Assembly (NCBI GenBank): GCA_947177775.1
Contig: CAMWVS010000006.1
Location: forward strand, 1-64,000
From: an uncultured Prevotella sp.
Lineage (GTDB): Bacteria; Bacteroidota; Bacteroidia; Bacteroidales; Bacteroidaceae
Reading direction: 5' to 3'
Length of the DNA: 64,000 nt
Position 1 is the first letter of the stretch, and each line of letters starts with the position of its first letter. Shown here in pieces: positions 8,047 through 31,770 of the stretch. Made by a program: the position numbers and the translations under genes. A model generated the notes under the pieces. It ran no database searches, was not told where the DNA came from, and saw only the letters and a program-made list of their open reading frames with translations.

Positions 8047-8344
8047 AATTCTTTTTTTGTATGTAATCCCTATCTAAAGCGTCAGGGTTTTGCTTCCATT
8101 TTTAGTTCAGCATGGATGCTGTCTTTATCAAGCGCTTCCGGTTACAAAGTTACTTTTTCTTTTCGTTTATTTTGCAATTTTTATTGCGCAAAACAGTGCG
8201 TATTTGCTTTCAGGGGTATTAATTGGGTATAAATGTGGATTTCTGTTTGTTGCGCAAAACAGTGCGCAAAGCCTTGTGTATGGGAGTATTTGGGGGTGAA
8301 AAGTGGGCTATGGCAAGTATTTGTTGTTATAATTATATCACGGA

Positions 8345-8724
8345 ATTTAACACTTGAAAATTCTTATTCTGGAGCGCTCCGCCGTCAAAAAAATGGCGTT
8401 CCGCCGCTTCCGGCACACGAAATTTTGCCTGCCTCCAACCAATAAGGCCCTCCCGAGGTTGCAACGGGGCCACCGTTGTCTCACAACGGGGCTGCCGCTG
8501 CAGTGCAACGGTGGCCCCGTTGCAACCTCGGGAGGGCCTTACGGCAGAAGTTTTGGCCCGTTTTTATTGCACACTTCTGCTGATTTCGTCATAACATGCT
8601 GTGTCTCAGAAGATATAAATTGCACGCGCAAAACTCGCGAATTTCGGACATCAGGAAAATAATTTCTGAATATCGCAAGGATTTTGAGTTATTTGTCCGT
8701 TAATTTCTGAGTTTTTAACAGTTG
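8345..8724 (+). repeat. Dispersed ~380-bp element, copy 1
   Basis: Shares ends (atttaacacttgaaaa ... gtttttaaca), the block tgcacgcgcaaaactcgcgaattt, the core caacggtggccccgttgcaacctcggga and nearly identical length with copy 2 at 28855-29236. Confidence 0.85.
8443..8541. repeat. 36-bp perfect inverted repeat with 27-nt loop inside dispersed element copy 1
   Basis: taaggccctcccgaggttgcaacggggccaccgttg (8443-8478) is the exact reverse complement of 8506-8541. Confidence 0.95.
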
Positions 8725-28385: not shown

Positions 28386-28697
28386 TTATAGGCGTCCCGG
28401 TTTGTCGGACATGAAGTCTGTTTCATGGAGTCCGCCATACAGTTGTGTGTCCGATTGGTCTTGACACAGACAGCTACTTATGTTCATGGTGTATCCCCTT
28501 CCATGACAGGCATGCGCCATTTCTATATGTATCAGATAGAAATTGATGGCATTTTCTGTAATAGCTCTTATGAGGTTACGTTAATCTGTTATATTTGAAA
28601 TCTGTAAATAAGACAACATCCGGTCAAGAACATCTGAATCATTACAGACAGCCTCAATATATTTGTTCGTCTGGTGGCTCATAATATTTAAAGCCAT
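28386..28697 (-). pseudogene. Probable interrupted leader gene of ~103 codons upstream of left GT2
   Basis: MALNIMSHQTNKYIEAVCNDSDVLDRMLSYLQISNITD*RNLIRAITENAINFYLIHIEMAHACHGRGYTMNISSCLCQDQSDTQLYGGLHETDFMSDKPGRL*: one in-frame TAA, second stop 15 bp before the GT2 start. Confidence 0.5.
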
Positions 28698-28718
28698 ATT
28701 TCTCTTTGTAAGAGAAGT
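28686..28718 (-). repeat. 33-bp inverted repeat, left copy (IRL)
   Basis: atttaaagccatatttctctttgtaagagaagt matches the reverse complement of 29484-29516 at 31/33 positions. Confidence 0.9.
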
Positions 28719-28854
28719 GCCGGCGGATACAACACTATGGACATCAGCCTCATAGACCACAATTAATGTTGAGCAGCAGTGGTGTTGTGTGACAGAGCGC
28801 CCCATTCCGGATAAAACAGGCCGGATAGTAAAAAAAGTAAATATAATATCATAG

Positions 28855-29236
28855 AATTTAACACTTGAAAAATCTGATTCTAGAGCGGTGCGAAGCCGAA
28901 ATCCTGACATTTTGCCTCGCCCATCCGCCGGTCTCCGTTCGGTTTTTGAGCCGGGAGGGCCTTACGGCTCTGCAACGGGGCCGCTTTCGTGTTGCAACGG
29001 TGGCCCCGTCATCTTCCAACGGTGGCCCCGTTGCAACCTCGGGAAGCCCTTACGGCAAAAGAAAACATGACAAAAAGCTGCACACTTTCATTGATTTCGC
29101 TGTAACGCGTTGTGACTCAAGTGGTAAAAGATGCACGCGCAAAACTCGCGAATTTGCGGCCGAATGATTTTTATTTCAGAATAACGCAAGGATTTTGAGG
29201 TATTTGTCAGAATAATTCTAAGTTTTTAACACTTCG
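28855..29236 (+). repeat. Dispersed ~380-bp element, copy 2
   Basis: Same termini, conserved blocks and length as copy 1 (8345-8724), with a rearranged GC-rich core. Confidence 0.85.
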
Positions 29237-29441
29237 TTTTCACATTCCTCCCATACCCTTCCGCTCCTTATCCTCAACACCGTTGCCTGATGCCGCTGCA
29301 AGCTTGACGCCGCCCTAAATCTTTCTTTCATACATCTATGACATATAGGCCCGATGCAATGGACTTTCCTGACGGATACGCCTGCTTTATTTATGTTTAG
29401 TTTCGTTTTTTATGCTTAATTCGTATTTTATTGGGAAAAAC

Positions 29442-29472
29442 TTCGTAGTTATCTTTATTTTTCGTAAATTTG
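29442..29472 (+). promoter_or_regulatory. Candidate promoter TTCG-N19-TAAATTTG (first duplicated unit)
   Basis: TAAATTTG at 29465-29472 matches TAnnTTTG; ttcg at 29442-29445 is one mismatch from TTTG with a 19-nt spacer. Confidence 0.6.
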
Positions 29473-29483
29473 TAGCCAATAAT

Positions 29484-29516
29484 ACTTCTCTTACAGAGAG
29501 AAAGATGGCTTTAAAT
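29484..29516 (+). repeat. 33-bp inverted repeat, right copy (IRR)
   Basis: acttctcttacagagagaaagatggctttaaat; includes ATGGCTTTAAAT (MALN). Confidence 0.9.
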
Positions 29517-29603
29517 AGCAATGGGCTTTTCTGACGGATACGCCTGCTTTATTTATGTTTAGTTTCGTTTTTTATGCTTAATTCGTATTTTATTGGGAAA
29601 AAC

Positions 29604-29634
29604 TTCGTAGTTATCCTTATTTTTCGTAAATTTG
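29604..29634 (+). promoter_or_regulatory. Candidate promoter TTCG-N19-TAAATTTG (second duplicated unit)
   Basis: Same motif shifted by 162 bp; closest candidate promoter to the GT operon at 29890. Confidence 0.6.
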
Positions 29635-29889
29635 TAGCCAATAAAACTTCTCTTACAAAGAGAAAGATTGTTTGAGAAAGTCGTGAATGGTGGTATGGCC
29701 ATCATTTTTCATGAGGCGTCTTATGAGATGTCTTGATAGTGAAATTGTCTAAATACTGTTTATTAAAAAGATATACAAATATTCTGTATGATATCAAGAT
29801 TAAATAAATCCAATGCGAATAAAGAGTAACGAACGGATATCTTTTTTATGTAAGAGGAATTATTATAATCCCATATATCTTGTAATATT

Positions 29890-31770
29890 ATGAATGAGAT
29901 AAAAGTTTCCATCATAGTGCCAGTCTATAATGTAGAAAAATATGTTGTACGCTGTATCGAATCTATAGCTGCCCAGACTTTAAGTGGAATAGAGGCTATA
30001 TTCGTGGATGATTGCGGACTGGACAGGAGTATGGAGCTGGTTAGGAATTTCATAGATGAATATGATGGAGATGTTTACTTCCGTATAATCCGGCTGGACA
30101 GGAACAGTGGCCAGTCTTCCGCTAGAAACTTTGGTATCAGGGAAGCGCGTGGAGAATATATATATTTCCTGGACAGTGACGATTATATCTCTCATGACTG
30201 TATCGAGACCCTCTATTCAGTGGCAGAGGCGGACAGATCGTTGCAGATGGTTCTCGGCAACTATGCCATTGAGGGAGCTTTGTTCCTTGCTCCGATGATG
30301 CTCCGGCAGCGTGATTACACCTCGCAGGAGATAATAGAGGCTCAGTTTGACTATCGCATATATACGATGCCTTGGAATAAGCTGGTCTCAAGGGCATTTC
30401 TCATGGAAAGAGGATTGTTCTTTAGAGAGGGAATCATACATGAGGACAATCTTTGGAGTTACTGTACGGCTTTGTGTTATGACAGGATTTCTGTTGTAAG
30501 AAAGGTTACATATCATTATGTCATCCACTCTCATTCAACGGAGCGTGGCAACTCAAAGGCATTTCATGAGGAACAACTGTTTGAGGTTCTGAAATATCTG
30601 ATACATTTTATCTTTTCCGACAGTATTGCTGTGAAGCGGCAGGTTATGCTCAACCCCGTTCTGTTCCGTTTCGTACAGGCTGAGATAATGAAGTCATTGA
30701 TGCTGCCGTTGAAGTCCGGTGACGTTAAACTGGCAGTGAAACGATACAGGGAAATCCGTGAAATGAGAATGTGGACTTTCAGGGAACTTTTTTCCATTGA
30801 GTCCCTGTCCGTATCGGAGCGGATACGTCCGCTTGTATTCTGGTTGCCTTCATTGGCCGGGATTAAGGCATACGGATATCTCAACAACCGCAAGTATAAA
30901 CAACCAAATGAAATAAACGCGATGAAACTTACGATAATCACCGTTAATTATAACAATCTGGACGGACTGCGGAGAACAATGCCTTCCATATTGTCCCAGA
31001 CATACACCGGATATGAACTCATCGTCATTGACGGCGGTTCTACGGACGGCAGCAAGGAATACATACAGTCACTGGACAGGATTGACTATTGGGTCAGCGA
31101 ACCTGACGGCGGTGTATATAATGCAATGAACAAGGCGGTTCGTCAGGCTCATGGAGAGTTCTGTATATTCATGAACTCAGGTGACATGTTCTTTTCGCCT
31201 CTGTCGCTGGAGGAATCCGTGCCATTGCTGCTTGATGCGGATTTCTATACGGGAGAGTCTGTCTTCATTGAGGACGAAAAGGCATATCCGTGTATTCCTC
31301 CAAACGAGATGACGGTTGATTTCATGATGTGCAATGCCTTGAACCATCAGTCGACATTCAATCGGACTGCCGTTCTCAAACGCCATCCGTTCAATGAGAA
31401 ACACAGGATTGTTTCGGATTGGGAATTGTTCTTTGAAGAATGGTATGTCAACAAATGTACATACAGCCGCCTTCCGACGCGGGTGTCCATCTATTTCATG
31501 GACGGCATATCGTCCGTCAACAAGGATATTGCTGACGACGAACGCCGCGAGGTGGCATACCGTCTGCTTGGGCCTGATGTAACGAACAAATTTCTGAATC
31601 GGGAATATGACGATCTCCCCAAGGACAAGAAGCGCCGCCAGAAGCGCGAGGGGAGACGGAAGAAACTGGAGCGGAAGCTGGCTACGGCAATGTCATATAG
31701 CCCCGTGAGCCGTGACCTGAAGATAATACGTAACGGAATCAAATTCCTGTTCAAGGATTTGTTCACTTAA
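29890..31770 (+). CDS. Fused tandem GT2-GT2 glycosyltransferase
   Basis: First GT2 VSIIVPVYNVEKYVVRCIESIAAQTL...; second GT2 starts at internal MKLTIITVNYNNLDGLRRTMPSILSQTYTGYELIVIDGGSTDGSKEYIQS. Confidence 0.88.
   Translation: MNEIKVSIIVPVYNVEKYVVRCIESIAAQTLSGIEAIFVDDCGLDRSMELVRNFIDEYDGDVYFRIIRLDRNSGQSSARNFGIREARGEYIYFLDSDDYISHDCIETLYSVAEADRSLQMVLGNYAIEGALFLAPMMLRQRDYTSQEIIEAQFDYRIYTMPWNKLVSRAFLMERGLFFREGIIHEDNLWSYCTALCYDRISVVRKVTYHYVIHSHSTERGNSKAFHEEQLFEVLKYLIHFIFSDSIAVKRQVMLNPVLFRFVQAEIMKSLMLPLKSGDVKLAVKRYREIREMRMWTFRELFSIESLSVSERIRPLVFWLPSLAGIKAYGYLNNRKYKQPNEINAMKLTIITVNYNNLDGLRRTMPSILSQTYTGYELIVIDGGSTDGSKEYIQSLDRIDYWVSEPDGGVYNAMNKAVRQAHGEFCIFMNSGDMFFSPLSLEESVPLLLDADFYTGESVFIEDEKAYPCIPPNEMTVDFMMCNALNHQSTFNRTAVLKRHPFNEKHRIVSDWELFFEEWYVNKCTYSRLPTRVSIYFMDGISSVNKDIADDERREVAYRLLGPDVTNKFLNREYDDLPKDKKRRQKREGRRKKLERKLATAMSYSPVSRDLKIIRNGIKFLFKDLFT

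Follow-up and report, generated by a model that had tools for sequence, protein, structure and literature searches.

A dispersed non-coding element of Prevotella built around a 22-bp-stepped array of palindromes

We found that the genome of an uncultured Prevotella sp. (assembly GCA_947177775.1) contains a family of dispersed, non-coding, mostly intergenic elements of about 400 bp. Two copies lie in the window, that is, the 64,000-nucleotide stretch analysed here (positions 1 to 64,000 of contig CAMWVS010000006.1, forward strand). The elements have a common plan: a TTTGT(A/C)AA end box, a spacer, a central array, a hairpin module (CTCAAAACTCGCGTATTT, 21 nt, CAGAATAnCGC), and a second TTTGT(A/C)AA box in direct orientation relative to the first. 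We judge the chance to be about even that the family is a mobile, non-autonomous DNA element whose array is a set of phased operators for a putative dimeric DNA-binding protein.

Copy 1 extends from 8321 to 8724 on the + strand, based on a gap-free alignment of 31 copies from the same genome and on a search of that genome. A preliminary description of the window had recognized a repeat here beginning at 8345. The repeat was recovered, with its true left end ~20-25 bp upstream of that position, at a conserved ATAATATCACGGAATTTAACACTTG. The left end (8321-8360, +) consists of a degenerate TTTGT(C/A)A box followed by conserved ATAATATCACGGAATTTAACACTTGAAAA, as indicated by column conservation and by equivalent TTTGTAAA left boxes in two congeners, G016 and G099. 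The right part starts with the hairpin module. Its first arm is the invariant core TGCACGCGCAAAACTCGCGAATTT (8621-8644, +), and its second arm in the alignment (CTGAATATCGCAAGGATTTTGAG; 8666-8688, +) is imperfect here and perfect in other species, e.g., G018. A TTTGTCC box and the terminal ..TTTTTAACAGTT follow (8692-8724, +), placed by column conservation and by comparing landmarks across species. Copy 2 (28832-29235, +; own-genome search and alignment) matches copy 1 at an offset of 20511 over ~400 bp with no internal indels, and the core search placed its invariant core at 29132-29155 (+). The second copy, the conserved islands and the direct TTTAACA(C/G)TT ends that had been reported were all found in the window.

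Copy 2 lies between the arms of a 34-bp inverted repeat (94%; 28685-28718 and 29484-29517) that has an inner site, ACTTCTCTTACAAAGAGAAA, and is located upstream of a glycosyltransferase operon. The segment between these arms looks like an invertible (phase-variable) promoter segment. A 162-bp tandem duplication (94%; 29356-29679) lies directly upstream of the glycosyltransferase gene at 29890, and a third site (29646-29673) is within it.

The core of the element is a regular array. It had been described as a mosaic of GC-rich modules; the modules are better described as five imperfect palindromes of ~17 bp with a 22-bp step. In copy 1 these are unit A (8440-8456, centre 8448), unit B, CAACGGGGCCACCGTTG (8462-8478, centre 8470), unit C (8484-8500, centre 8492), unit D, CAACGGTGGCCCCGTTG (8506-8522, centre 8514), and unit E, TCGGGAGGGCCTTACGG (8528-8544, centre 8536), all on the + strand and centred at alignment columns 128, 150, 172, 194, and 216. 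A shift of 22 bases gave by far the strongest self-match in the copies from this genome (autocorrelation z 27.5). The array as a whole is also symmetric about its middle unit, with 62% of 49 pairs complementary around the centre of unit C. The 36-bp perfect inverted repeat noted previously in copy 1 was located (8443-8541, no strand assigned; arms 8443-8478 and 8506-8541, 27 nt between them). It pairs the right part of A plus B with D plus the left part of E, and its arms also support the placement of units B, D, and E.

The family is much larger than the two copies from which it was first described. The genome assembly (3.06 Mb in 110 contigs, about 90% complete) contained 74 pieces matching a 380-bp query. 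With as many as 3 mismatches allowed, the 24-mer core was found at 42 places (0 for the reversed control); a model of the 3' part (157 nt), built from sequence alone, matched at 49 places, and 44 of these matches scored at least 67 bits. These numbers exclude chance, and the refutation proposed earlier, a genome with only two copies, does not apply. We count 44 strong and 5 weak copies, confirming the earlier observation of a dispersed family, which had understated it. The elements are thus short, numerous, dispersed, and without coding capacity, as expected of a MITE; 7/45 copies overlap an ORF call of at least 130 amino acids by more than 40 bp, and those calls may be spurious.

We found that length is maintained in spite of extensive sequence divergence. 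The 31 full copies aligned without gaps at a mean identity of 66% (range 44-86%, element columns used). Because these 31 had been selected as near-standard in length, we assessed length by looking for landmarks across a wide range in each of the 40 copies extracted from the genome. The spacing from the left landmark to the core was identical in 26/35 copies, off by 1 bp in 5/35, and longer by 10-11 bp in 4/35. The offset of the right-end landmark was constant in every full-length copy in which the landmark was found. Among the closer pairs of copies, transitions and transversions were about equally frequent (1304 and 1192). At this divergence, the scarcity of indels appears unusual.

Parts of the element are exchanged between copies. 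Inter-copy distances for the left, central, and first right parts were correlated (r 0.35-0.59), and those for the last 75 columns showed no correlation with the other parts (r -0.10 to -0.01), which indicates that modules are exchanged near the invariant core. "Mosaic" was therefore an apt term for the right hairpin part, which reassorts independently of the remainder (Mantel r about -0.1 to 0). Many right flanks in the window's own genome (e.g., those of L020, L036, and L074) are similar to TTTTCAACGCAAAGACGC, which may be what is left of a longer, older end or may mark a favoured neighbourhood. In G018, the paralogues L370 and L372 contain a perfect hairpin whose 5-nt loop is inverted in place between the two (TTCCCTGCCTGGGAA / TTCCCAGGCAGGGAA), suggesting hairpin-mediated strand switching. 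We rejected micro-inversion of modules in place as a general process; this pair was the one clear case, and the overall frequency was not above that of displaced controls.

The family appears to be confined to the genus, which is Prevotella in the GTDB sense. The 3' model, applied to 60 relatives, matched in the same genus only (35 places in G012, 18 in G016, 6 in G045, and few others) and had no match in 24 genomes from the order's other families. Among 150 congeners, the motif CTCAAAACTCGCGTATTT with 2 mismatches was abundant in some (57 in G045, 44 in G090, 40 in G016, 35 in G083, 34 in the window's own genome, 33 in G126, and 25 in G099) and rare or absent (0-2) in most, and the reversed control was near 0. 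In a scan of named genomes, the matches were almost all in Prevotella, Leyella, Hoylesella, and Hallella; by our estimate, the few matches scattered over other phyla do not exceed the number expected by chance. One matching contig (L210, CADCNI010000024.1) is filed under a Ruminococcus MAG. Since it shares 98% identity with a Prevotella locus, it is probably misbinned.

Elements of other species hardly align with those of the window's species outside the hairpin module, yet they follow the same plan. By eye, the array words are CAACGG..CCGTTG and CCGTAAGG..CCTTACGG in the window's species, AAAAGCAnnGCTTTG in G012, and of the GCGTCA type in G016, the GGAAAAGCCTTTTCC type in G126, and the ATTCTTGCGAAGAAT type in G099. 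The strongest autocorrelation was nonetheless at a shift of 22 bp in 6/7 species sets (z 27.5, 21.9, 21.3, 15.2, 13.3, and 9.7), which is close to an integral number of turns of the helix; in the seventh set it was at 44 bp and then at 22. Across species, the lengths of full copies vary mainly by 22-bp steps. Relative to the hairpin, a landmark lies at -247, -269, or -291 in G016, at -259 or -281 in G126 (left box at -280, -302, or -324), and at -271 or -293 in G099. Lengths in G045 do not follow the step cleanly. The right TTTGTAAA box is at +65 or +66 in G016, G099, G012, and G045 and at +62 in G126. The same kind of boundary, with direct TTTGT(A/C)AA boxes at both ends, was obtained from 19 G016 copies and from two paralogue pairs in G018 and G159. 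Since the words turn over while the spacing is kept, similarity searches within or between species miss the common plan.

Several observations suggest that the elements move. Orthologous genes hardly ever flank copies from different species (3 pairs among 258 ORFs, one of them the holA locus), and no gene family recurred next to 107 dispersed loci from many species. One copy (L363 / L369) is common to the sister species G018 and G159. At another site (L365), G159 carries the element and G018 lacks it. The check for empty sites that had been proposed thus gave one sister-species site lacking the element and no clean junction: in G018 that intergenic space is filled by unrelated sequence, so the junction is undefined. 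This filling sequence (L380, contig C63) includes a different palindrome, CAGTCAACCGATCTG..CAGATCGGTTGACT, which may belong to another family of repeats. For copy 1, none of 200 congeners had a match to both flanks, and a search for internal empty sites using repeated flanks in the window's own genome yielded none. Mobility is therefore supported by distribution rather than by a clean junction. A phage, plasmid, or viral origin was considered and rejected: the element had no BLAST match in phages or plasmids, and viral contigs contained four isolated matches to the motif and none to the paired motif. Orientation toward the replication origin was also dropped as a candidate, as the GC skew in G016 is too weak to place the origin.

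In the reading that we favor, a mobile element with phased operators, the element would spread in trans at the DNA level, mostly into intergenic sites and without target duplication. The palindromes (usually five, ~17 bp each) would be 22 bp apart because that is two turns of the helix, and a dimeric DNA-binding protein might occupy the same face of the DNA at each unit and fold the whole into a nucleoprotein complex of fixed shape. Such a shape would account for the conservation of spacing rather than sequence and for whole-length variants that step by 22 bp; the small subfamily with longer spacing would differ by about one turn, 10-11 bp. Module exchange between copies would occur by recombination, by which each species would homogenize its own words. 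We infer transposition in trans and the helical-phasing reason for the spacing from these patterns, and the putative binding protein from the spacing and symmetry of the array only.

A possible but on balance unlikely alternative is that each element is a host-owned chromosomal site, an operator cluster for a nucleoid-associated or global regulator that is kept by selection and reshuffled over evolutionary time. A mobile element need not conserve the length of its interior, so the strict spacing, with a near absence of indels at ~66% identity and lengths quantized by 22 bp, could also mean a host function. In the window's own genome, the start of the left neighbouring gene faces the element in 21/27 cases, as might be expected of such a site. 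However, this bias was not repeated in six other species groups (12 left neighbours facing vs 24 not), which makes a conserved promoter-linked role unlikely. Copy numbers ranging from 0 to about 57 among congeners, and positions that are not conserved, also argue against a host-owned site.

One location of the hairpin module is fixed and speaks for a host-owned site. In most species examined the module occurs once at this place, and in many element-poor species it is single-copy there, downstream of holA and upstream of an XRE-type HTH gene; its arms are again 21 nt apart. It is 665-672 bp from the start codon of the XRE-type gene in nearly all species where it was found (694 in one case). By eye, the window's own genome has a diverged form at the same place. 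The XRE-type gene (PF01381 domain) was present in 23/24 genomes tested. The noncoding stretch between holA and the XRE gene is ~660 bp, AT-rich, and near-constant in length across Prevotella (L269, L295, and ~30 orthologous loci), and the region before the XRE gene has mainly 14- and 8-bp periodicity, with 22 weak. We considered the XRE protein as a binder of the array words and rejected it as unlikely, because its recognition helix hardly varies among species with completely different words. It could be a putative binder of the conserved hairpin module.

This locus also enters a further reading, to which we give only tentative credence: a genus-wide nucleoprotein element defined by geometry and not by sequence, with five ~17-bp operators spaced exactly two turns apart plus a conserved hairpin, words replaced in each species, a coevolving partner, and the holA-XRE hairpin locus as the ancestral or controlling site. 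Under that definition, wholesale replacement of the operator word in each species would imply a fast-coevolving DNA-binding partner.

The preliminary description had also suggested an RNA-coding element. We consider it improbable that the family is a multi-copy structured RNA gene or a cis-regulatory RNA that uses the hairpins. The central 120 nt do have a much stronger predicted fold than shuffled sequence has (mean z -6.1), and in some species the hairpin module forms a stem that is nearly perfect. However, the strong folding of the centre is due to its symmetry. Complementary pairing within a copy (30.5 of 49 pairs) was barely above that between copies (29.6; z 2.0), as expected of separate binding sites and not of a selected fold. 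RNAalifold on both strands found almost nothing, only 2/21 predicted pairs in the right part had changed on both sides, and mutual information and permutation tests gave no convincing covariation. The left and right parts folded no better than shuffles. Rfam had nothing at gathering scores, with two weak matches on the palindrome far below gathering. In addition, the linkers of an RNA need no strict 22-nt step. Exact two-turn spacing with free sequence is needed by a phased nucleoprotein array and not by an RNA, which is why we prefer the mobile-element reading.

Descent from a DDE insertion sequence, as a MITE that may have decayed, likewise seems to us to have little probability. The family behaves like a MITE, as had been proposed, in its many mostly intergenic copies at non-orthologous places and its absence from one sister-species site. 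It is short, lacks an ORF, has internal tandem units, and comes from the same bacterial order as BrickBuilt, a MITE of Porphyromonas gingivalis that has IS5-type inverted ends and 23-nt repeats, is 84-991 nt long, and is present in 19 copies per genome (PMC4596501). The structural part of the proposal was not upheld. Copies from the window's species and from G016 have no terminal inverted repeats; the box at one end recurs at the other as a direct repeat. No full-length insertion sequence sharing the element's ends was seen in this analysis. The left and right sides of 31 own and 19 G016 copies had no consistent match, above that expected for mismatched copies, that would indicate a target-site duplication. 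G126 alone has possible outer inverted ends (TGCATAAATATACG / CGTATATTTATGCA, by eye). BrickBuilt is the closest described case, being also non-coding and intergenic, with a leader and a tail around an internal repeat array. It differs in its IS5-like terminal inverted repeats and variable repeat number, in contrast to the direct boxes and near-fixed unit number of the Prevotella element, whose units are palindromes with species-specific words.

A REP-like element was also among the earlier suggestions. It is very improbable that the family consists of REP/REPIN-type repeats mobilized by a RAYT (Y1) transposase: REP/REPINs (PMC3733652, PMC6006769) are likewise palindromic, dispersed, intergenic, homogenized within species, and high in copy number, but they consist of a 20-40 bp palindrome (PMC3733652) with a GTAG-type tag, whereas the anatomy of the Prevotella element, ~400 bp with a five-unit array, is of another kind, and the Y1 transposase domain (PF01797, Y1_Tnp) had no match in four element-rich genomes, the window's own (~10% missing) and G012, G099, and G126 (each 99% complete). 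A search for Y2/IS91-type transposases had no match, but the control genomes gave none either.

Two other kinds of known system are similar in part. Enterobacterial RU/ERIC elements are single repeat units of 103-168 bp (PMC2229807, PMC2759123). The Prevotella element resembles them in being non-autonomous, intergenic, of a conserved length class, and without its own transposase, and differs in its 22-bp stepped array and separate conserved hairpin, recoded in each species. To our knowledge, the enzyme that mobilizes RU/ERIC has not been identified. The operators of lambda OR and the iterons of plasmids are short sites about two helical turns apart on one face of the DNA. The Prevotella arrays differ from these in occupying ~45 chromosomal sites that are not beside a replication or repressor gene. 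We found no description of the element in Prevotella in the open-access literature, and one may exist elsewhere.

Small bacterial repeats are usually recognized by their sequence. Here, the spacing is kept to the base and the words turn over between species. If the array is a set of phased protein sites, it would provide a handle on a mobilizing or nucleoid protein in a dominant genus of the gut and rumen, and on how a DNA-binding protein and ~45 chromosomal sites can change specificity together.
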